From Sphaerochaetaceae bacterium (GTDB taxonomy: Bacteria; Spirochaetota; Spirochaetia; Sphaerochaetales; Sphaerochaetaceae), in the NCBI GenBank assembly GCA_016938475.1, contig JAFGUP010000256.1:1-33753 (forward strand): a stretch of 33,753 bases of DNA. Direction: 5' to 3'. Numbering within the stretch: position 1 is the first letter of the stretch; each line of letters starts with the position of its first letter. The notes beneath the pieces are model-generated. The model was not told the DNA's origin, ran no database searches, and saw nothing but the letters and a program-made list of their open reading frames with translations. The translations under genes and the position numbers were made by a program. Shown one piece after another: positions 3,488 through 14,123 of this stretch.

Positions 3488-4273
3488 ATGACCGATTACA
3501 TGGAAGGAACCGGTATCCAATACCATCTACATATAAAGAAAGGAGATGTCGGCAGGTATGTCATCCTGCCGGGAGACCCGAAGCGCTGTGAGAAGATTGC
3601 ATCGCATTTCGATGACCCTCAGTTCGTGGCTGACAGCCGGGAGTATGTGACCTATACGGGCTATCTTGAAGGGGAGAAGGTGAGTGTCACCTCGACAGGC
3701 ATCGGAGGACCTTCGGCATCCATCGCGGTGGAGGAACTGTTTGCCTGCGGAGCCGATACATTCATCAGGATGGGAACCTGTGGAGGGATCGCTCTTGAAG
3801 TGAAAGGAGGAGATGTAGTCATCGCCACCGGTGCCATCCGGCATGAGGGAACCAGCCGTGAATATGCTCCGATCGAGTTCCCTGCGGTTGCCGATTTTTC
3901 CATTGTACAGGCGCTCAACACAGCATCAGATCAACTGGAAAAGACCTCCCACACCGGTATCGTACAGTGCAAGGACTCCTTCTACGGTCAGCACTCTCCC
4001 GAAATCAAACCTGTGAGTTATGATCTGATCAACAAATGGGAGGCCTGGAAGCGCCTGAATGTGCTTGCCAGTGAGATGGAATCAGCGACACTTTTCGTCG
4101 TTGCTTCCTACCTGAAAGCTCGGGCAGGAAGTGTCTTTTTTGTAGTGGGTAATCAGGAACGGGAAAAACTGGGAATGGATAACCCCATCTATCATGACAC
4201 GGAGGTCGCGATAGAGGTGGCCGTGCAGGGACTCAGGAATCTCATTCTCGAAGACAGGAAGAAACAACGCTGA
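3488..4273 (+). CDS. udp: Uridine phosphorylase
   Basis: The protein belongs to the hexameric nucleoside phosphorylase family, which splits a nucleoside with phosphate into base and ribose 1-phosphate. The phosphate-binding loop GDPKR is at residues 29-33, the RMGTCGG segment at 94-100, and the purine/pyrimidine family motif SEMES lies near residue 195. [11 protein letters not shown] segment is of the type I recall from Firmicutes uridine phosphorylases; the E. coli enzyme has GQER here, so the uracil contacts differ slightly. At 261 residues the length is normal. A strong ribosome binding site (AAGGAGG, 3475-3481) precedes the ATG by six bases. A gap of 63 bases separates it from mutS2, and no terminator was seen there. 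It converges on the minus-strand polyferredoxin gene with only 14 bases between the stops. A broader purine or thymidine specificity cannot be excluded. Confidence 0.87.
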
Positions 4274-4287
4274 GGCCCTTCCTGTTC

Positions 4288-4911
4288 TTAGGATGTATAA
4301 GAGATCGCCGTAGTCGGACAGGTCTCAGCACATGCTCCGCAGGAGATGCAGAGGGCCGGGTCGATCACAGCTTTCCTGTCAACAATCTGTATAGCATTCG
4401 CCGGACACACTTTCACGCACTTTCTGCAACCTATACAGGTCGAACTCTCAACCCGATAATGCCGTCTGCTGCGTTTTCCTCCTGTTTTCAGAAGGATGGA
4501 AAAAGGGCACAGGTAGGTATGCCAGGCAGCGGAAGAAAACCCGAGAGTCCAGAGAAACGAGAGAACAAAATAGATCAGCAGGACGGGCAGCTGTACATGA
4601 AGTGTTTTCTGTCCTGCAATCATGATCAGTACAGCAATCAAAAGGGAAACGAACGGAAGATAGCGTAGAAGAGTCGTGTTCAGTGTTGTAAGCTTGATCT
4701 TTCCCTTGATCCTCTGTGATACCTTCATCGCAGTCTGCATCGGGCAGATATAGCCGCAGTAGAATCTTCCGAAGAAGAGTGAAAGAATCACCGATACTCC
4801 ATACAGTGCAAGCCACAGCACCATCGCTCCGCGGAGCACGGTGAACACGAAGAGAACAAGGGCGATAATCTCGATAGTCAGTTGTACATAGTGCTTCTGT
4901 TTTCTGTTCAT
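4288..4911 (-). CDS. NapH-type membrane polyferredoxin (4Fe-4S)
   Basis: This integral membrane electron carrier has about four hydrophobic segments (roughly 11-28, 31-48, 84-100 and 107-127) followed by two cytoplasmic [4Fe-4S] ferredoxin motifs. The first cluster uses C159, C162, C165 and C169, and the second C188, C191, C194 and C198. The NapH/NosR-type CxxxCP motif is present once as C52GYIC56P. The expected second copy reads H131TYLC135P, so its first cysteine is histidine. The start was placed at the ATG at 4911 because AAGAGG lies seven bases upstream; a TTG six codons further up has no ribosome binding site. Such proteins pass electrons to a partner oxidoreductase, but none is encoded here. 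The gene lies downstream of the lyase gene on the same strand, separated by a hairpin, so co-transcription is uncertain. Confidence 0.8.
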   Translation of the reverse strand: MNRKQKHYVQLTIEIIALVLFVFTVLRGAMVLWLALYGVSVILSLFFGRFYCGYICPMQTAMKVSQRIKGKIKLTTLNTTLLRYLPFVSLLIAVLIMIAGQKTLHVQLPVLLIYFVLSFLWTLGFSSAAWHTYLCPFSILLKTGGKRSRRHYRVESSTCIGCRKCVKVCPANAIQIVDRKAVIDPALCISCGACAETCPTTAISYTS

Positions 4912-4997
4912 AGATACCTCTTGATCCAACAGGTACCATAGAACAGAATCTTCTGTCGTTGCATCTGCAACTTCAGTGAGGAAAAATTGTCTGATTC

Positions 4998-5032
4998 CAC
5001 GTGGATATCACATCATGGGTGATATCCATGTG
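4998..5032. terminator. 14-bp hairpin between the lyase and polyferredoxin genes
   Basis: The arms at 4998-5011 and 5019-5032 are complementary over 14 positions with one mismatch and enclose a 7-base loop. The hairpin sits 15 bases beyond the stop of the minus-strand lyase gene, so it probably ends or attenuates that transcript. Read on the minus strand, a run of five T follows only after about 11 bases, which is not a textbook intrinsic terminator. Confidence 0.5.
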
Positions 5033-5046
5033 AATTTCATCACACA

Positions 5047-6516
5047 TCAGAGGCTGTCACCGAAATCTTCTCTGAACTTAGCCATCAGCTTCACAGGCCA
5101 ATCTCCCCTGGCTTTGAGACGTCCCACGAAGAAGCGCAGGACCTTGGGTTCCTTCTCCCACTCAAGCCCGCCGACGAGGCGCCTGTTGTCGAAGAGCCAT
5201 TTCAGCCTGTCTATTGCATATTCAACCTGGGAGAGGGTGAAGACCCTTCGAGGGAAGGCAAGACGCATCAGTTCGATATCAGCAAGGAGGTCACTGCCAT
5301 CTTCCAGACGAACCGATGATATGGTACCCCTCTCCATTCCTCTGATACCACTTATGAGATAGAAGGCGGCAACCAGAGCTCCTGCTGGGTACTCCTGCTG
5401 CGGGATATGGCTCAGGAATGACCCTGCATCGATATGTGCTCCCAGAGCACCCCCGGGGGTGACAACCGGCAGTCCGAGACCATCGGTCTTTCGTACGAAA
5501 TAGTCAATGAATGATGGGGACTGACTGATCATAGTGTTATCGAGGGTCTCTTCGAGCCCTACCGCCATTGCTTCAATTTCCCTGACAGACATCCCGCCAT
5601 AGGTAAGAAATCCTTCATACAGGGGAACAAGATCGCGCATCTGATCGTACAGATCGAATCTGTTCGTGCAGATAATGCCGCCTCGACTGCTCGAAAGCTT
5701 ACGGGCAGAGAAGTAGACGAGGTCACTGAGATCACTCATCTCACGGATGATTTCCCCCATTGTCTTCTGTGCATAGCCACTCTCCCTCTGTTTGATGAAC
5801 CAGGCATTTTCACCGATGAGTGATGCATCAAGGACTATCATGATATTGGTATCATCGGCGACCTTTCTCACCTGTCTCATATTCTCCATTGAGAAGGGTT
5901 GTCCTCCGATCAGGTTCGTGGATGCTTCCAGTCTGATGAACGGAATCCGTGCAGCTCCATAGGTCTCTATTACATCCTTCAATCGGTTGATATCCATATT
6001 GCCTTTGAACGGATGGGTGCTCTTCACCTTGAGTGCCTCATCGGTGTAGATCTCATGCAGAGTTCCGCCGTTGATCTCAAAATGTGCTTTTGTCGTGGTA
6101 AAGTGATAGTTCATCGGAATCTGGTCACCCTCATGAACGAATGCCTGACCGACGATGTTCTCGGCAGCCCGTCCCTGATGAACCGGGAGGATATACTCCT
6201 TAGCGAACATGTTCTTGACCTGAACTTCCATTCGTTCGTAACTCTGAGAACCCGCATAGGCATCATCGGCGACCATCATGGCCGCAGTCTGACGGTCACT
6301 CATCGCGTTACACCCAGAATCGGTCAGCATATCAAGATAGGTTTCCCGTGTACTGAGCAGGAAACTGTTGAATCCGGCCCGTTCGATTGCCTCGAGTCTC
6401 TTTTCGATAGGAAGAAGATGAAGTTTCTGGACTACACGAACCTTGTGCAGTTCAAGCGGGAGAGAGTTCCCACTATAGAATTTCACCATCTCTGTCGGTC
6501 TCTGTTCAATATCCAT
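5047..6516 (-). CDS. Tryptophanase/tyrosine phenol-lyase family PLP lyase (divergent)
   Basis: The enzyme belongs to the PLP-dependent beta-eliminating lyases that split tryptophan or tyrosine into the aromatic compound, pyruvate and ammonia. The whole 489-residue frame aligns by eye. Shared features are LTDSG (65-69), DAYAGS with Y87, HQGR (113-116), D230, the cofactor lysine K273 in SARK, and PRR (422-424). Two positions that separate the family members look like tyrosine phenol-lyase rather than tryptophanase: R396 in MERG and F462 in LRFF. However, the arginine that contacts the cofactor in both families (DATR or DSAR) is L233 here, and THQGRG reads VHQGRA. The substrate is therefore uncertain, although automatic pipelines would probably say tryptophanase. 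AAGGAG lies eight bases upstream of the ATG. The C-terminus extends about 20 residues past the usual end. Confidence 0.85.
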   Translation of the reverse strand: MDIEQRPTEMVKFYSGNSLPLELHKVRVVQKLHLLPIEKRLEAIERAGFNSFLLSTRETYLDMLTDSGCNAMSDRQTAAMMVADDAYAGSQSYERMEVQVKNMFAKEYILPVHQGRAAENIVGQAFVHEGDQIPMNYHFTTTKAHFEINGGTLHEIYTDEALKVKSTHPFKGNMDINRLKDVIETYGAARIPFIRLEASTNLIGGQPFSMENMRQVRKVADDTNIMIVLDASLIGENAWFIKQRESGYAQKTMGEIIREMSDLSDLVYFSARKLSSSRGGIICTNRFDLYDQMRDLVPLYEGFLTYGGMSVREIEAMAVGLEETLDNTMISQSPSFIDYFVRKTDGLGLPVVTPGGALGAHIDAGSFLSHIPQQEYPAGALVAAFYLISGIRGMERGTISSVRLEDGSDLLADIELMRLAFPRRVFTLSQVEYAIDRLKWLFDNRRLVGGLEWEKEPKVLRFFVGRLKARGDWPVKLMAKFREDFGDSL

Positions 6517-6589
6517 CGGTCTACTCCTTTATGCATAGATCGTAGTATCAGACACATGTGAAGGGTTCTGTCTGTCCTGATACACTACC

Positions 6590-6601
6590 GTGAATTGTCA
6601 C
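6590..6601. promoter_or_regulatory. GTGA-N4-TCAC palindrome, possible operator
   Basis: This perfect 4+4 inverted repeat with a 4-base spacer overlaps the -35 box of the upstream ATPase promoter candidate (6595-6600). The position suits a repressor site. The half-site spacing does not fit CRP or FNR, whose equivalent half-sites are six bases apart. The repeat is short enough to be chance. Confidence 0.2.
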
Positions 6602-6624
6602 AAATTACAAACACAATGTATAAT
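6595..6624 (+). promoter_or_regulatory. Sigma-70 type promoter, distal to atpE
   Basis: TTGTCA (6595-6600) and a perfect TATAAT (6619-6624) are separated by 18 bases, with a TG directly before the -10 box. This is the best promoter match in the intergenic region. Transcription would begin near 6631 and leave a leader of about 270 bases before atpE. Confidence 0.5.
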
Positions 6625-6627
6625 CAG

Positions 6628-6657
6628 TGTATATTTATTTATAATATTACATGTAAA
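6628..6657 (-). promoter_or_regulatory. Weak promoter candidate for the lyase gene
   Basis: On the minus strand, TTTACA (plus-strand 6652-6657) and TATACA (6628-6633) are 18 bases apart. The -10 match is only four of six. It would give a leader of roughly 100 bases for the lyase gene and lies back to back with the plus-strand promoter at 6595-6624. Confidence 0.22.
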
Positions 6658-6844
6658 ACTCAACAATTCGGACTTCACTTTATATGAAAGTAAGGATATT
6701 AAGATGTTTTCGTTGTGAAGTTCCCTGTTGTTTGTGTGAAGATGCGTATATGAATCAGGAGTAGAAATACCTTACAGGATAAATTCAGGTTATTAACCGG
6801 GGGTATAGTCATATATGAAGTACCACAAAAAGGTTCGGGAAGTG

Positions 6845-6873
6845 TTGATATTATGTCCTGAACAAATTAAGAT
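6845..6873 (+). promoter_or_regulatory. Proximal promoter candidate for the V-ATPase operon
   Basis: TTGATA (6845-6850, five of six) and TAAGAT (6868-6873, four of six) are separated by the ideal 17 bases. Transcription would start near 6880, just ahead of the atpE ribosome binding site (GGAG, 6893-6896). The weak -10 box keeps confidence moderate. Confidence 0.35.
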
Positions 6874-6902
6874 GTACACCAATCAACGAAGTGGAGTATA
6901 CC

Positions 6903-7511
6903 ATGGAACTACAGATTCAAGACCTGATCGAATCCATCAAATCAGATGGAATTCAGGAAGCAGAGAAACAGAAAGAACAGATCCTCACCGATGCGAAGAA
7001 ACAGGCTGAAGCTATCGTGAAAGAGGCGGAAAAGGAAGCAGCTGCCATCCTTGAAACCTCCCGCAAGGAAGCTGCTGTTCTCGAGAACAGCGGTAAGGAA
7101 GCGGTAAGACAGGCATCACGTGATGTGATCCTATCTCTCAGGAAGAATATCAATACAACGATGGAAAGACTTCTCAAGACAAAGGTCGCGAAAAGTTTCA
7201 ACGAGAAACAGCTGTCTCAGCTGATCGTCGAAGTGGTGAAGTCGGGTATCAGCGATCCGGCCAAAAGTGCCATTGAGGTAAAGAAGGGTAGTGTCAAGGC
7301 TCTTCAGGAGGCTCTTGCATCCGACCTCGATCAGGAACTCAAGAGTGGACTCGTAATACGGATGAACAGTGATCTCGAAAGCGGATTCCGTTATGCCGAT
7401 ACCGGAGGACGAAGCTATTACGATTTCAGTGATGAGGAGATCAGTGCGTTTCTTCTTCCCTATCTGAATACTGCAGTGGCCGACATCCTGACAGGTAACG
7501 AAAAAGCCTGA
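6903..7511 (+). CDS. atpE: V-type ATP synthase subunit E
   Basis: Subunit E forms the peripheral stalk that holds the catalytic head of the rotary ATPase against rotation. The N-terminal part (about residues 15-90) is an Ala, Glu, Lys and Gln-rich helical coiled coil. The C-terminal part is a compact mixed domain ending in the region SFSDEEIS-like near residue 180, as in bacterial E subunits. The start was placed at the ATG at 6903 because GGAG lies six bases upstream; the in-frame GTG at 6891 has no ribosome binding site. At 202 residues the length is normal. It is the first gene of the ATPase operon, and 15 bases separate it from the next gene. The partner subunit G, which normally pairs with E in the stalk, is not recognisable in the operon. 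Confidence 0.88.
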   Translation: MELQIQDLIESIKSDGIQEAEKQKEQILTDAKKQAEAIVKEAEKEAAAILETSRKEAAVLENSGKEAVRQASRDVILSLRKNINTTMERLLKTKVAKSFNEKQLSQLIVEVVKSGISDPAKSAIEVKKGSVKALQEALASDLDQELKSGLVIRMNSDLESGFRYADTGGRSYYDFSDEEISAFLLPYLNTAVADILTGNEKA

Positions 7512-7526
7512 GCGGGGGATAGGTGA

Positions 7527-8090
7527 GTGGCAGTCTATTATTACATTCTATCATCTCTTCCGATGCTTCAGTTCACGCAGAAGCAACCTCTTACATATGC
7601 TGATCTTCTTTCTTCCTACAGAGAGAGTGTCAGTGAAAACGACAGCAGGCTCCTTCAGTCACTACAGAGGAATCTGAGGTTTGAGATCGAAGAAGATCAC
7701 CGTGTCACCGAACAGTGGAATGCGTTCGTGCACGATGTGACAAGTGAACTTGCCCACCTGCGTATCATCAAAGCCCGTAAGGAGAGTGAGCATCACCAGC
7801 ACGAAGATAAAGATATGTATTCCATGGTCCTCAGCGGAGAGGTGGTGGAAGGTGTACGGGGAGTGTTTTCCATGGAGGATCCCCTCTCGAGCGAACTGGC
7901 TCTGCTGAAGCTGTACTGGGATAAGGCCGAGTCTCTGAAGGGTTCTCATGCGTTCGACTCGACTATTCTCCTTGTGTACGCTATTCAGTTGAGAATTCTT
8001 GAGCGTAAGGAACTGTTTGACCCCCTTGAAGGCAATCAGGAATTCAAGAGACTGTTTTATGATATTCAGACAACGATTAAGAGCATATAA
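7527..8090 (+). CDS. V-ATPase-associated protein of unknown function (DUF2764-like)
   Basis: The 187-residue protein begins with VYYYILSSLP, a start I associate with the DUF2764 family, which from memory is found between atpE and atpA in spirochaetes, Chlamydiae and Bacteroidetes. It appears almost entirely helical and highly charged, with no membrane segment, signal peptide or catalytic motif visible. A His-rich stretch, HHQHED, lies near residue 90. The start is GTG at 7527, preceded by a purine-rich GGGGGATAGG. It lies 15 bases after atpE and 15 bases before atpA, so it is firmly part of the operon. The operon has no recognisable subunit C, F or G gene, so this protein may fill one of those structural positions. 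That role is inference only. Confidence 0.85.
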   Translation: MAVYYYILSSLPMLQFTQKQPLTYADLLSSYRESVSENDSRLLQSLQRNLRFEIEEDHRVTEQWNAFVHDVTSELAHLRIIKARKESEHHQHEDKDMYSMVLSGEVVEGVRGVFSMEDPLSSELALLKLYWDKAESLKGSHAFDSTILLVYAIQLRILERKELFDPLEGNQEFKRLFYDIQTTIKSI

Positions 8091-8105
8091 ACGGAGTAAA
8101 TAGTT

Positions 8106-9881
8106 ATGGCGACGAATACTGGTCTTGTTACTGGCGTCAACGGCAACATGGTAACGGTTGTCTTTGATGGAGACATACTTCTCAATGAGGTTGGATACAT
8201 CTTGATAGGTGAGGAAAGACTCAAGAGCGAAGTCATCAGAATATCAGGGAATAGTGCCTCGATGCAGGTCTTTGAGATGACAAATGGAGTCAAAGTCGGG
8301 GATTCTGTTGAATTCACAGGTGAACTGCTGAGCGTTGAACTCGGCCCCGGATTGCTCACTCAGATCTATGACGGCCTTCAGAACCCGCTTCCGGAACTTG
8401 CCGCTCAGTGCGGATTCTTCCTGCAGCGCGGTGTCTACCTTCAGGCGATTCCCGATGCACAGTGGGAGTTCACTCCGGTTGTGAAAAAGGGGGATACTGT
8501 ATCACCCGGTGAAACACTCGGAACAGTCCCCGAAGGAATATTCACTCACAAGATTATGGTGCCCTTCGGCTTTTCAGATGGAGCGTGGAAGGTTGTCTCG
8601 ATCGTCAAAAAAGGCTCATACAATGTTCGCTCAGAAGTGGCAGTGCTTGAAGATGAGAAGGGGAAAAAAGAATCAGTCTCGATGGTCTTCACCTGGCCGA
8701 TCAAGCGCCCCATCACTCGCTATAAAGAACGGTTGAAGCCTACCGAACCCATGATCACACAGGTGCGTATCATTGACACCTTCCTTCCTGTTGCAAAGGG
8801 TGGCACCTACTGTATTCCGGGCCCGTTCGGAGCTGGAAAGACGGTTCTTCAGCAGATGACCAGCCGTAACGCCGATGTTGATATCGTGATTGTGGCGGCC
8901 TGCGGTGAGCGTGCTGGAGAAGTCGTTGAAACACTCAAAGAATTCCCTGAACTGATAGACCCCAAGACCGGAAAGACGCTGATGGAGAGAACCACCATCA
9001 TCTGTAACACCTCGAGTATGCCGGTTGCCGCCCGTGAAGCCTCTGTTTACACTGCGGTTACCATCGGAGAGTATTATCGACAGATGGGACTCGATGTCCT
9101 CCTCCTTGCTGACTCCACAAGCCGCTGGGCTCAGGCAATGCGTGAGATGAGCGGTCGCCTTGAAGAGATTCCCGGTGAAGAGGCATTCCCTGCCTACCTG
9201 GAGTCGACCATCGCCAGCTTCTATGAACGTGCCGGAATCGTAAGACTCAAGGACGGAAGTACCGGATCGGTCACCATCGGCGGAACGGTGTCTCCTGCAG
9301 GCGGTAACTTCGAGGAACCTGTCACGCAGGCTACTCTCAAGGTAGTGGGAGCATTCCATGGACTCAGCAGAGAGCGAAGTGATGCCCGTAAGTACCCGGC
9401 TATCCACCCCCTTGATTCATGGACGAAATATTCCAGTGTGATCAATCAGGACAAGGTCTCCTATGCACGGTCGATCCTGTTCAGGGGTAACGAAGTTTCT
9501 CAGATGATGAAGGTTGTCGGTGAAGAAGGAACGAGTCTTGATGACTACACGACCTATCTGAAGAGTGATCTTCTTGATTCGGTCTACCTTCAGCAGAACT
9601 CGTTCGACCCGGTTGACTTCGCAGCTCCGATCGAGAGACAGCAGATTGTCTTCGATCTGCTGTTCGAGGTCCTTGCAAGTGAATTGAATCTTGAGGACAA
9701 GAAAGAGGCCCGTTCGTACATTAACGAGATGAGACAAGCTTTCATCGACTGGAACAACACGCCTCAGGACAGTGAACGGTTCGGTCAATATAAGGATGAG
9801 ATCAGCTCTGCTCTCAAATCCCGATTCATCTCTTATGATAAAAAAGCGATGAAGATCCTTCAGTCAAACCAGGTGGTCTAA
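8106..9881 (+). CDS. atpA: V-type ATP synthase catalytic subunit A
   Basis: Subunit A carries the catalytic nucleotide sites of the V1 head. The Walker A loop GPFGAGKT is at residues 239-246, and the Walker B strand reads [13 protein letters not shown] near residue 337. The A-type non-homologous region (about residues 110-200) that distinguishes A from the F-type beta subunit is present. The length of 591 residues is usual. The ATG at 8106 follows GGAG (8093-8096) by nine bases. The gene ends one base before atpB, which implies strong translational coupling and equal A:B production. The enzyme could either make ATP or pump ions at ATP cost; the sequence does not decide which. Confidence 0.97.
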
Positions 9882-9882
9882 G

Positions 9883-11181
9883 ATGCAGAAGATATATACA
9901 AAAATCGATTCGATATCAGGTAACGTCATCAGTGTGAAGGCGGAGAATGTGAGAAACGGTGACCTTGCGGTTGTCACGAGCAAGCACGGGGAGTCTCTTG
10001 CGAACGTCATCAAGCTGAACGGTGAGAACGTGACTCTCCAGGTCTTTGCAGGAGGGAGAGGAGTCTCCACCGGTGATAAGGTGAGATTCCTCGGGTATCC
10101 GATGCGTATCTCCTATACAGAAGACCTCATGGGTAGAGTCTTCAATGGTTCAGGTATCCCCCGTGATAACGGACCGACCCTTGATGAGAACATGATCGAG
10201 ATAGGCGGACCGTCGGTCAACCCGGCAAAGCGTATCATCCCACGCAATATGATACGTACAGGTATTCCGATGATCGATGTGTTCAATACACTGGTCGAAT
10301 CTCAGAAACTCCCGATTTTCAGCGTATCGGGCGAGCCGTACAATGAAGTGCTTGCCCGAATTGCCATGCAGGCAGAGGTCGACCTGATTATCCTGGGCGG
10401 AATGGGACTGAAGTATGACGACTATCTCTTCTTCAAGGACACCCTTGAGGCCAGTGGAGCTATGAGCAGAACCATCTTCTTCGTTCATACAGCCAGTGAC
10501 CCGACTGTTGAGTGTCTTCTTGTTCCAGACATTTCCCTTGCTGTAGCTGAAAAGTTCGCACTTGATGGTAAGAAGGTCCTTGTCCTTCTTACTGATATGA
10601 CGAACTTCGCTGATGCGATGAAGGAAATAGCAATCACGATGGAACAGGTTCCTTCAAACCGTGGATACCCCGGTGACCTGTACAGTTCACTTGCCTCCCG
10701 CTATGAGAAAGCGGTGGACTTTGAAGGAGCCGGTTCGGTGACCATCCTTGCGGTGACGACGATGCCCGGTGATGATGTGACCCACCCTGTACCTGATAAC
10801 ACCGGGTATATCACCGAAGGGCAGTATTACCTGAAGAACTCCCGTATCGAACCATTTGGTTCGCTATCCCGTCTCAAGCAGCAGGTCAACAAGGATACAC
10901 GTGATGACCACCGTGCGCTGATGGACGGCATGATCAAGCTCTATGCATCGTTCAAAGAATCGGTTGAAAAGAAATCGATGGGTTTCCAGATGAGTGAATG
11001 GGATGACAAACTCCTGAAGTACGGTGACCTTTTTGAATCAAAACTGATGGACCTGAGTGTTAATATACCTCTGGAAGAAGCACTTGATCTTGGCTGGGAT
11101 ATCCTCAGTGACTGTTTTGATCCAAAAGAAACTGGTATGAGAAGTGAACTTGTCCTCACGTACTGGCCGAAAGACAACTAA
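9883..11181 (+). CDS. atpB: V-type ATP synthase subunit B
   Basis: Subunit B alternates with A in the hexameric head and contributes residues to the nucleotide sites without a working P-loop of its own. The degenerate loop is visible as [10 protein letters not shown] starting at residue 147, with no GKT. Other family landmarks include [18 protein letters not shown] and [22 protein letters not shown]-type segments in the second half, including the arginine-containing SLSRL motif near residue 328. The length of 432 residues is normal. It starts one base after the atpA stop, with AGGTGG a few bases upstream inside atpA. Confidence 0.97.
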
Positions 11182-11190
11182 GGAGTCCCT

Positions 11191-11817
11191 ATGGCCACAG
11201 TGAAACTGACGAAGAACGAACAGAAGAAACAGAAGGACCAGCTCAAGCAGTTCCAGCGCTATCTTCCTACGCTGCAGTTAAAAAAACAACAGCTCCAGAT
11301 GGTGATCAGGAAGATCGAGGCCGAGGTGAAAGAACTTGAGTTGCGTCAGGCTCGGTTCATTGAATCTCTTCAGCCCTGGGTTGCAGTGTTCCATGAGAAC
11401 ACAACCTTCAATGATGGGCACTCTCTGAGTGATCTTGTGAAAGTCGACAAAGTGGAGCGGGAAAAAGGGAATATCGCGGGGGTGCCTATACCTGTGTTCA
11501 AGACCCTCACCTTCCATCCGATCAGGTACGACTTCAGGGAGTATCCTCTGTGGGTGGATACCGGTGTATCCGTCCTCATGGAAGTAGCCCGCCTCGATGC
11601 CAACATTGCCGTACTGCAGCAGCAGATCAGGCTGCTGGGACGTGAACTGCGTGTGACGAGCCAGAGAGTAAACCTCTTTGAAAAGGTAAAGATCCCTGAA
11701 ACGAAGGAGAATATCCGTAAGATTCAGATCTACCTTGGTGATCAGCAGACCTCAGCTGTTGTTCGGGGAAAGATCAGTAAGCGGAAACTGCTGAAGAACG
11801 CACAGGAGTCGGCATGA
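11191..11817 (+). CDS. atpD: V-type ATP synthase subunit D (central rotor stalk)
   Basis: Subunit D is the rotor shaft that turns inside the A3B3 head. Nearly the whole 208-residue chain is predicted helical. The N-terminal helix contains LKKQQLQMVIRKIEAEV (about 30-46) and the C-terminal helix includes RRTSQRVNLFEKVKIPE-like residues, which is the family's characteristic two-helix coiled coil. Lys and Arg are abundant. GGAG lies five bases before the ATG at 11191. The stop overlaps the atpI start as ATGA. No separate subunit F, the usual partner of D in the rotor, follows. Confidence 0.92.
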   Translation: MATVKLTKNEQKKQKDQLKQFQRYLPTLQLKKQQLQMVIRKIEAEVKELELRQARFIESLQPWVAVFHENTTFNDGHSLSDLVKVDKVEREKGNIAGVPIPVFKTLTFHPIRYDFREYPLWVDTGVSVLMEVARLDANIAVLQQQIRLLGRELRVTSQRVNLFEKVKIPETKENIRKIQIYLGDQQTSAVVRGKISKRKLLKNAQESA

Positions 11818-13685
11818 TAGTAGGAATGAAACGAGTATCAATCGTAATGCGCTCTCATGAAAAGGTGAACACACTGCGTGCTCTGCGCAGAGTCGGTGTT
11901 ATGCATCTTGACGACGTTGAAGTCCAGAGCGAGACGCTCAGCCAGCTGACCGATCGTCTCAGTGATTATGAGACAATCAGCGCAATACTTAAAGAACGTG
12001 CGAAAAAAATGAAGATGCCGAAGGATCAGCAGATCCTTTCATCACAGGATTTCCTCGTTGCCCATGATCATCTTGTTGACCTCGTTGACACAGAGGAGGC
12101 TCTTAAGGAGAACATTGCCCAGCTTTCCAAGGACAGAGACCTCCTGACACCCTATGGTGAATTTGATATGAAGGGCCTACGTGATATCTGTTCGTACGGC
12201 TATGAACTGTCCTTCTATGCACTTGATAAGAAAGTGCTTTCTTCAATCGAAGCTGATTACATTCCCATCGCATCAGATGGTAAGCAAACTGTTATCGCAA
12301 CGGTTTCCCTTCAGCTTCCCGATGATGGAAAAACAGAGCGAATCCACTGGCCCCATCACTCTCTTAGCGAGACCCTTGCCCGTATCGAACACGATTCCTC
12401 ACGCCTGCAGCAGGTGGTTCAGGAGATCGGGGAAAATGTATACCTTCTTCCTTCGTATGCCTTTCATACCCGGGTGGTGGAACAGGAGATTGAATTCGAG
12501 AAGGTCGAAGAAGGGATGGAGGAATCTCACTCACTGATCTCCTGGATCAGCGGATATATACCCGAGGACCGCCTTGATCAGTTCAAAGCCTTCGCCCGAA
12601 ACGAGAAGGTTGGCTATTCCCTCAGTGACCCTGATGAGGAGGAAGTTCCTCCGACCAAGGTGAAGAACAACAAGGTGATATCGATCATCTCTCCGGTGTT
12701 CGACTTGCTGGGTACGGTGCCCGGGTATCGTGAATATGATATCAGCATGTGGTTTTTAATGTTCTTTGCGGTATTCTTCGCCATGATCATCGGAGATGGT
12801 GCCTATGGGCTTATTCTCCTGGGAATCGCTGCAGGTGCTCACCTGAAAACGAAGAAGGCAAACAACGGCATCATCCTGCTGTATGTGATGAGCAGTGCCA
12901 GTATCGTGTGGGGAGCAATCACCGGAGCATGGTTCGGGTCACAGTGGATCATTGAGAATGTCGGCTTTCTCAATTCTCTTGTGATCCCACAGATATCTGC
13001 GTATCCGGAAGTCTTCGGTCTGGAGGCAACCACTGCCCAGAATACCGTGATGCAGCTGTGCTTCATCATAGGTACGCTTCATCTCTCTCTTGCCTGTGTG
13101 ATCAACATCCACAAGAAAATTGGAGAAAGGGATATCTCTCTGGTTGCAGACCTCGGCTGGCTGATGATGATCGATGCACTCTACTTCCTCGTCCTTCTTC
13201 TTGTCATCGAGACTCCGGCCAATCTTCCTGCCATAACGACTGTAGTCCTTACAGGCCTCCTTCTGGTGATTCTGTTCGGAGCCCAGGGGCCCAACATACC
13301 GTTTGTGAAGGGTATGCTCGGAGGCCTTGCCGGACTATTCACCACGTTCCTCGACTCGATCAGTGCCTTCGGCAATATCATAAGCTACATCAGACTGTTC
13401 GCTGTAGGTATGGCTTCTTTAGCCATCGCCCAGTCGTTCAACTCGATGGCATCGATGATGATGCATGGTTTTGCCATTCCGGCAGCCATCCTCGTGCTGC
13501 TGCTCGGGCATTCTCTCAACTTTGTCATGGCTCTTCTTTCAGTGGTAGTACACGGAGTCAGACTGAATCTACTTGAATTTTCCGGTCAGCTCGGCATGGA
13601 GTGGACCGGTTATGCATACGAACCGTTCAAAGAGACGGTTGAACCCACATCACATACGTTGGTAGAAACAACGATAAGGAGCTAG
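11814..13685 (+). CDS. atpI: V-type ATP synthase subunit I (ion channel subunit a)
   Basis: Subunit I (a) is the stationary membrane subunit that forms the ion half-channels next to the K ring. The first half (about 1-300) is a cytoplasmic helical arm. From about residue 312 on there are roughly seven to eight hydrophobic helices. The essential arginine that releases the ion from the ring is R527 in SYIRLF (524-529), within the conserved motif before AVGMASLAIA. The family C-terminal segment with LNLLEFS follows. The length of 623 residues is within the usual range. It overlaps atpD by four bases, and atpK starts three bases after its stop. Confidence 0.96.
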   Translation: MIVGMKRVSIVMRSHEKVNTLRALRRVGVMHLDDVEVQSETLSQLTDRLSDYETISAILKERAKKMKMPKDQQILSSQDFLVAHDHLVDLVDTEEALKENIAQLSKDRDLLTPYGEFDMKGLRDICSYGYELSFYALDKKVLSSIEADYIPIASDGKQTVIATVSLQLPDDGKTERIHWPHHSLSETLARIEHDSSRLQQVVQEIGENVYLLPSYAFHTRVVEQEIEFEKVEEGMEESHSLISWISGYIPEDRLDQFKAFARNEKVGYSLSDPDEEEVPPTKVKNNKVISIISPVFDLLGTVPGYREYDISMWFLMFFAVFFAMIIGDGAYGLILLGIAAGAHLKTKKANNGIILLYVMSSASIVWGAITGAWFGSQWIIENVGFLNSLVIPQISAYPEVFGLEATTAQNTVMQLCFIIGTLHLSLACVINIHKKIGERDISLVADLGWLMMIDALYFLVLLLVIETPANLPAITTVVLTGLLLVILFGAQGPNIPFVKGMLGGLAGLFTTFLDSISAFGNIISYIRLFAVGMASLAIAQSFNSMASMMMHGFAIPAAILVLLLGHSLNFVMALLSVVVHGVRLNLLEFSGQLGMEWTGYAYEPFKETVEPTSHTLVETTIRS

Positions 13686-13688
13686 AAT

Positions 13689-14123
13689 ATGAATATCGGA
13701 TTGATAGCTATGGCAGCAGCGTTAGGTCTTTCAGCAGCCGGGTCTGCACTGGGTACAGGAGCAGCATCGCTTGCAGCGATCGGCGGTTGGAAGAAGTGTT
13801 ATGCGAACGGTAAGCCGGCACCATTCATCATGGTTGCATTTTCCGGTGCTCCGCTCACTCAGACAATCTACGGATTCCTTCTGATGAACTTCATCACTGC
13901 AGCAGTCAGTGCAGGGAAAGACCCTATGATGATTCTCGGAGCTGGGATCTTCGGCGGTCTCGCTATCGGACTGTCAGCATGGATGCAGGGTAAGGCCGGA
14001 GCTGCGGCTAGTGATGCGTATGCAGAAACAGGGAAAGGAACAGCAAACTACTTCATCGTCATCGGTATCGTAGAGACCGTTGCACTGTTCACCCTCGTCT
14101 TCCTCCTTCTTCTTCTCCAATAG
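13689..14123 (+). CDS. atpK: V-type ATP synthase subunit K (rotor ring), sodium-type residues
   Basis: This small protein has four transmembrane helices formed by two fused hairpins and builds the rotating ring. The ion-carrying glutamate is E129 in the last helix. The first hairpin has Q58 in place of a glutamate, so there is one carboxylate per subunit. T57, Q58, Q100 and E129 match in type and spacing the sodium ligands T64, Q65, Q110 and E139 of Enterococcus hirae NtpK (from memory), which suggests a sodium-coupled pump. The fifth ligand there is a backbone carbonyl. The length of 144 residues is normal. AAGGAG lies about seven bases upstream of the ATG, overlapping the end of atpI. It is the last gene of the operon and is followed by a terminator. 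Confidence 0.95.
   Translation: MNIGLIAMAAALGLSAAGSALGTGAASLAAIGGWKKCYANGKPAPFIMVAFSGAPLTQTIYGFLLMNFITAAVSAGKDPMMILGAGIFGGLAIGLSAWMQGKAGAAASDAYAETGKGTANYFIVIGIVETVALFTLVFLLLLLQ

Follow-up and report, generated by a model that had tools for sequence, protein, structure and literature searches.

How a rotary enzyme could couple its catalytic head to its membrane ring without a collar is the question raised by the V-ATPase operon of this Sphaerochaetaceae bacterium, which lies within the 33,753 nucleotides of contig JAFGUP010000256.1 analyzed here (the window). The collar that joins the rotor shaft to the membrane ring is subunit C, which is termed d in Thermus and in eukaryotes. No gene for C, F, or G is present in the operon, and its intergenic gaps are too small to fit any of them. 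An open reading frame at positions 7527 to 8090, situated between the genes for E and A, specifies a protein of the DUF2764 type, and this protein and the family members encoded at the equivalent place in other operons are hereafter designated X. The initial annotation had put X forward as a candidate for a shortened C or for another of the missing structural parts.

Organization of the window operon

The operon consists of seven genes on one strand in the order E-X-A-B-D-I-K, and Pfam and NCBIfam models assign a subunit name to the products of all but X. The gene for the peripheral stalk subunit E (6891..7511, + strand; 206 aa, with an alternative start possible at the ATG at position 6903) encodes a protein which matches the NCBIfam model of V-type ATP synthase subunit E (E=5.6e-48, 163 bits, below the equivalog cut-off) and, weakly and below the cut-off, V-ATPase_G_2 (E=0.0025). 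Downstream of X, the catalytic subunit A (8106..9881, + strand) scores 780.8 bits against the NCBIfam subunit A model, over its cut-off, and subunit B (9883..11181, + strand) is of the DUF2764-associated kind (NF002555/PRK02118), with 765.5 bits against a cut-off of 431. The rotor shaft, subunit D (11191..11817, + strand), is recognized by Pfam ATP-synt_D (153.1 bits) and, over the cut-off, by NF002565 (241.8 bits). The membrane stator, subunit I (11814..13685, + strand), scores 490.6 bits against the NCBIfam subunit I model, below the cut-off of 799, and the 144-residue subunit K of the membrane ring (13689..14123, + strand) scores 189.8 bits against NF005174, over the cut-off of 127. The first half of K contains an LTQTIYG stretch, which resembles that of sodium-type V-ATPases. 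A study of Bacteroides fragilis reports that the sodium residues are kept in the K of that organism (PMC10197588).

The gene encoding X (7527..8090, + strand) has a GTG start and specifies 187 residues, which in an hmmscan search scored 32.4 bits against Pfam PF10962 (DUF2764; E=1e-7), above the curated cut-off of 24.1; when the whole genome was searched with PF10962, the X gene was not reported. Conserved alignment columns at its N terminus include Y4, Y5, L11, and P12, and the first helix, assigned to residues 2 to 10 by DSSP on the predicted model (7530..7556, + strand), carries the conserved N-terminal YYY..SLP stretch. Along with its position between E and A and an all-helical predicted structure, these properties bear out the initial annotation of X as a real DUF2764-type protein.

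Relationship of X to subunit C/d

Two forms of X occur in the phylum to which the window belongs, a short form of approximately 173 to 200 aa and a long form of approximately 260 to 300 aa, the latter being the form carried by Bacteroidota. Pfam DUF2764 is matched at E<=0.1 by 55 of the 56 short forms, and a short-form profile aligned end to end with 24 Bacteroidota long forms (probability 99.5, E=2e-22), with one gap. This gap leaves approximately 76 long-form residues unmatched between residues 46 and 52 of the window protein (7662..7682, + strand), residue 46 being paired with long-form residue ~48 and residue 52 with residue ~130, and in the long-form model the unmatched stretch comprises approximately three and a half helices. 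The B. fragilis protein ptos_002487 (PF10962) resembles window X in its family, as judged by profile, in its location between E and A, and in the gene order E-X-A-B-D-I-K, and differs from it in length (~280 aa against 187 aa), the ~76 internal residues being absent from X. As judged from the profile alignment, window X is homologous to the long form but lacks an internal stretch of it. In a quick tree of 62 chosen A subunits, whose outgroup was limited to five canonical rows, one of which has a long branch, the X-type enzymes were separated from the five canonical ones with a support of 100, and the 27 short-X rows formed one clade with a support of 97, so that a single change between long and short forms is seen. 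The tree itself cannot tell gain from loss; because greater length is seen both in C and in the remaining X lineages, this change is read as one loss of the internal stretch.

Window X gave no match to PF01992 (AC39), the Pfam family of subunit C/d, and none of the 56 short forms matched it at E<=0.1. At the same threshold PF01992 was matched by 27 of 40 long forms (best E value, 2.8e-8; 13 did not match) and by 16 of 24 Bacteroidota DUF2764 proteins. The DUF2764 protein of Bacteroides finegoldii reached 26.7 bits (E=4.4e-6; cut-off, 29); of 14 named Bacteroidota genomes, none had a match over the PF01992 cut-off, and nine had sub-cut-off matches at the DUF2764 gene. Nine long-form X genes in the window's phylum do pass the curated cut-off of 29 bits, with scores ranging from 29.3 to 43.4 (G393, 43.4; G300, 40.1; G374, 38.5; G331, 32.2; G361, 31.4; G341, 31.4; G293, 30.3; and, only with neighboring in-frame pieces, G385, 29.5, and G358, 29.3). 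All nine PF01992 positions coincide with X as located by the long-form profile, and the X proteins of G374 (locus L253), G393 (L254), and G300 (L252), which match DUF2764 profiles as well as, above the cut-off, Pfam AC39, bridge the two families.

Profile-to-profile comparison pointed in the same direction. Against 24 canonical C sequences, with C columns dropped where at least half of the sequences had gaps, the long X profile scored 41.6 (P=5.5e-5), compared with 12.6 for reversed C, and scored lower, 31.7 (P=0.0017), when all C columns were used. The long-form score was reached by none of 150 column shuffles and none of 150 block shuffles of the C profile, the corresponding counts being 0/150 and 1/150 for the short set and 0/150 and 4/150 for a mixed short-plus-long set. 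The short X profile aligned with the 24 canonical C sequences over 36 ungapped columns (P=0.0038), thereby pairing E123, F143, and Y151 of X with E296, F316, and Y324, respectively, in the canonical C encoded by the same genome; the latter two positions of C do not vary among the 24 aligned sequences. The three X residues lie in its C-terminal helical module, residues 104 to 186 (7836..8084, + strand). A Bacteroidota-only profile matched C weakly and in another register (P=0.029) and was set aside as support. The best hhalign register, in which long X residues 31 to 160 are aligned with C residues 193 to 351, disagrees with the Pfam register and with the full-length structural register. Subunit C has three repeats, and internal repeats are also evident in the C profile, which is probably the reason for the differing registers. 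Sequence searches of the PDB with the window protein, its profile, and the B. finegoldii protein identified no relative of DUF2764, yielding only one chain (phmmer, E=0.45) for the first, YflH (E=0.0074) and one eIF3 chain (E=0.15) for the second, and no match up to E=10 for the third.

The AlphaFold2 model of window X (mean pLDDT, 92.4; pTM, 0.84) consists entirely of helix, with no strand, and in this respect is like subunit C/d (PF01992; PDB 1r5z, 6ly9, and 7uzf chain d). Foldseek returned no significant match for this model, the subunit C chain 1r5z_A being found at rank 43 (E=8.1). In a second look with VIA, the first three rows were Thermus subunit C (Z scores of 6.1, 5.3, and 5.2, with 159 to 163 of the 187 residues aligned); as the fourth row, an unrelated helical protein, reached a Z score of 4.8 over 80 residues, the C rows stand hardly higher, and the result is weak when taken alone. 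For the model of the B. fragilis long form (pLDDT, 87.8; pTM, 0.83), Foldseek ranks 1 to 6 were all subunit d/C (E=0.058 to 0.57), and in the second look with VIA rows 1 to 20 were likewise all d/C, with Z scores of 9.7 to 14.2 over 206 to 259 aligned residues, the next row being at 4.7. This match of a predicted fold to d/C is the strongest single result of the analysis. Prediction of the structure of X by itself thus ranked subunit C first but only weakly, and the clear d/C fold was seen in its long relative.

The long DUF2764 proteins, whose predicted fold agrees with that of C/d along most of the chain and which match PF01992, are remote homologues of subunit C/d by profile and predicted fold. 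A remote relationship between X and this subunit is therefore upheld for the long forms directly and for window X by way of the long form, X itself having no direct PF01992 match and a weak structural match. With 187 residues, X falls short of the full size of C/d (320 to 350 aa), than which the long form is also shorter. We propose, with a probability of roughly 0.83, that X is a shortened, fast-evolving V/A-ATPase subunit C, serving as a collar positioned on the K ring and receiving the foot of rotor subunit D; the candidacy of X as a shortened C is supported by the profile and fold homology of the long form and by the alignment between X and that form.

Association of X with its enzyme

X was present in 56 of the 61 genomes searched, that of the window included, a level of conservation which is far beyond chance. 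Among 89 loci, which include the window's own copy and two near-identical B. finegoldii records, X lies directly between E and A at 87. The two exceptions are L062, which is at a contig end, and L067, which is part of a split operon in genome G059, with E-X at one place (L067) and A-B-D-I-K at another (L258). Wide separation between the listed positions of X and of B was likewise seen in G296, G367, G405, and G410, which belong to the genus of G059. The gaps of 15 bases that separate X from E and from A in the window, initially described as fixed, turned out not to be a family trait: the 15/15 arrangement is peculiar to the copy in the window, the spacing at the other loci ranging from overlaps to gaps of tens of bases, and the spacing, being variable across the 89 loci, was rejected as a signal. 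Loci L090 and L094 are alphaproteobacterial plasmids with an X-type V-ATPase in the order B-D-I-K-E-X-A, located near carbamate kinase genes. L094 carries other arginine deiminase pathway genes as well and an X of 229 aa; in the Tateyamaria omphalii plasmid (L090:11325-12016), X is seemingly broken across two reading frames, with those of A, B, D, I, K, and E uninterrupted. DUF2764 was found in only 3 of 198 genomes drawn from the phylum of B. ihuae, the center included, and a description of the family as "common in Bacteroidetes" is not what this sample shows.

The co-occurrence of X with its enzyme was assessed in 246 genomes of the window's phylum, with the X-type B subunit scored by the NF002555 cut-off. 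This subunit was over the cut-off in 177 genomes, in agreement with the earlier impression that operons of this kind are common in the spirochaete group. As each profile misses some X, the short-form and long-form profiles were combined for counting, and X was thereby found in all 177 genomes with an X-type B. The short-form profile by itself detected X in 173 of the 246 genomes, all of them, as read from the tables, among the 177, and the four that it missed (G300, G304, G316, and G340) were all found by the long-form profile, X being also read directly at the locus in three of them. The long-form profile in turn misses G035, which is matched by the short-form profile at E=6.1e-29. In the 69 genomes without an X-type B, the short-form profile gave no match and the long-form profile one weak match (G291, E=3.5e-4, place not listed). 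PF01992 was over the cut-off in 110 of the 246 genomes, nine of them through X itself. By hand count from the search tables, a separate C exceeds the cut-off in 78 of the 177 genomes with X and in none of the other 99, one of which (G383) has a separate sub-cut-off match. Because no separate C is over the cut-off in these 99 genomes, X is most likely the collar in them.

A protein descended from subunit C need not have remained a permanent collar, and X could now act as an assembly factor or regulator. Such a role would be compatible with the loss from the short form of a considerable portion of the fold of C and with the arrangement in G059, in which E and X are together and apart from the remaining genes. 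It is, however, rendered unlikely by the occurrence of X wherever the X-type B is found (177/177), including the 99 genomes whose enzyme would otherwise be collarless, and by the retention of nearly the whole d fold in the long forms.

The window's own genome encodes C (PF01992, E=1.7e-38) and F (PF01990, E=1.6e-22) once each, both on contig 355, where a second V-ATPase operon (L047; positions 3754 to 12339, minus strand) comprises genes for C, I, F, E, A, B, and D. Inspection of the open reading frames of L047 also pointed to a 121-aa K and to a coiled-coil product that may be G. This genome accordingly has genes for both a C-containing and an X-containing V-ATPase. The two operons are alike in having A, B, D, E, I, and K with the same division of labor; L047 is unlike the window operon in encoding a C of 356 aa, F, and possibly G, and in having an A placed by the tree outside the X-type clade. 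The translations of both D proteins retain a similar GV.(I/L)P stretch, which we take to be the foot of D, and this likeness counts in favor of X as a collar. The reported absence of C, F, and G is therefore correct for the operon, in whose gaps there is no room for them, but not for the genome, and the C and F found elsewhere belong to a separate operon, so that they tell only in part against X as a replacement.

Their presence on contig 355 would nonetheless allow the window operon to borrow C and F from L047, X being then an accessory; this arrangement is highly improbable given that 30 of 38 chosen X-bearing genomes, partly picked for the lack of C and F in earlier profile searches, have neither a separate C nor F over the cut-off, the single-contig genomes G031, G059, G436, and G458 being among them. 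Already close to refuted is the idea that X is an unrelated helical stator or stalk partner of E, standing in for G, whose likeness to C is a helical-bundle coincidence: although X adjoins E at all 89 loci and the short form by itself scores weakly against C, X matches the long DUF2764 proteins end to end, the long form exceeds the AC39 cut-off in nine genomes, and the 20 best structural rows for it are d/C chains without exception, clearly separated from those that follow. Coincidence was rejected on the basis of the reversed, column-shuffled, and block-shuffled C profiles in conjunction with the fold prediction of the long form.

Proposed architecture of the X-type enzyme and its implications

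As a reduced subunit C, X would perform the function of d with a smaller cavity wall, the K ring lying below it and the foot of D inside. By binding both, it would couple the A3B3 head to the ring. The stretch lost from the short form may correspond to approximately one of the three C repeats, which would give a collar with fewer modules and, in the simplest rendering, a two-module picture. For the Thermus enzyme, the insertion of a short helix of D into the cavity of d has been described (PMC7367684).

X is found in operons that lack F and G, unlike C/d, and the suggestion that it replaces either of these subunits was not supported. Clustering of flanking open reading frames of 60 to 170 aa revealed no F or G candidate common to X-type operons. 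Two families of small open reading frames were observed upstream of E in relatives, at 9 and 8 loci, respectively (L050:3456-3899, 147 aa; L050:3953-4306, 117 aa); they match no Pfam family at the cut-off, were not seen near the window's operon, and are possible extra partners of the enzyme. The X-type enzyme would be expected to run without F, and its peripheral stalks would be built from E alone, perhaps as E dimers, the self-pairing of E being a guess. Whether E-X-A-B-D-I-K constitutes a complete rotary V-ATPase of seven subunit kinds, with a collar reduced by about one C module, a shaft devoid of F, and E-only stalks, is in our estimation evenly poised; such an enzyme would be the sole V-ATPase in many species of the phylum, and its head and ring would be coupled through an incomplete, asymmetric collar.

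Pfam lists DUF2764 as a family of unknown function, and in the literature searched, from which subscription papers were mostly out of reach, it was found only under that description and not named as subunit C. We take the chlamydial protein CT309 to be a DUF2764 protein. When tried as a secreted effector, CT309 scored "Not secreted" (PMC12671076), a result which fits DUF2764 as a V-ATPase subunit. The B. fragilis studies likewise refer to the protein as DUF2764 and to an enzyme with too few connecting subunits (PMC10197588, PMC10790697), the function being listed as unknown in the latter, and the former reports that V-type insertion mutants were nearly undetectable after deoxycholate treatment (PMC10197588). 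The V-type ATPase is also among the essential-gene candidates of Borrelia burgdorferi (PMC3485029). An earlier account of the V-ATPase clusters of Borrelia, chlamydiae, and Kuenenia describes them as devoid of C, F, and G homologues (PMC2936114). Recognition of DUF2764 as a reduced subunit C would return a collar to enzymes of the Borrelia, chlamydial, and Kuenenia types, would provide a family still termed unknown with a testable role, and would illustrate how far a collar can shrink with its gene still tied to the enzyme it serves.
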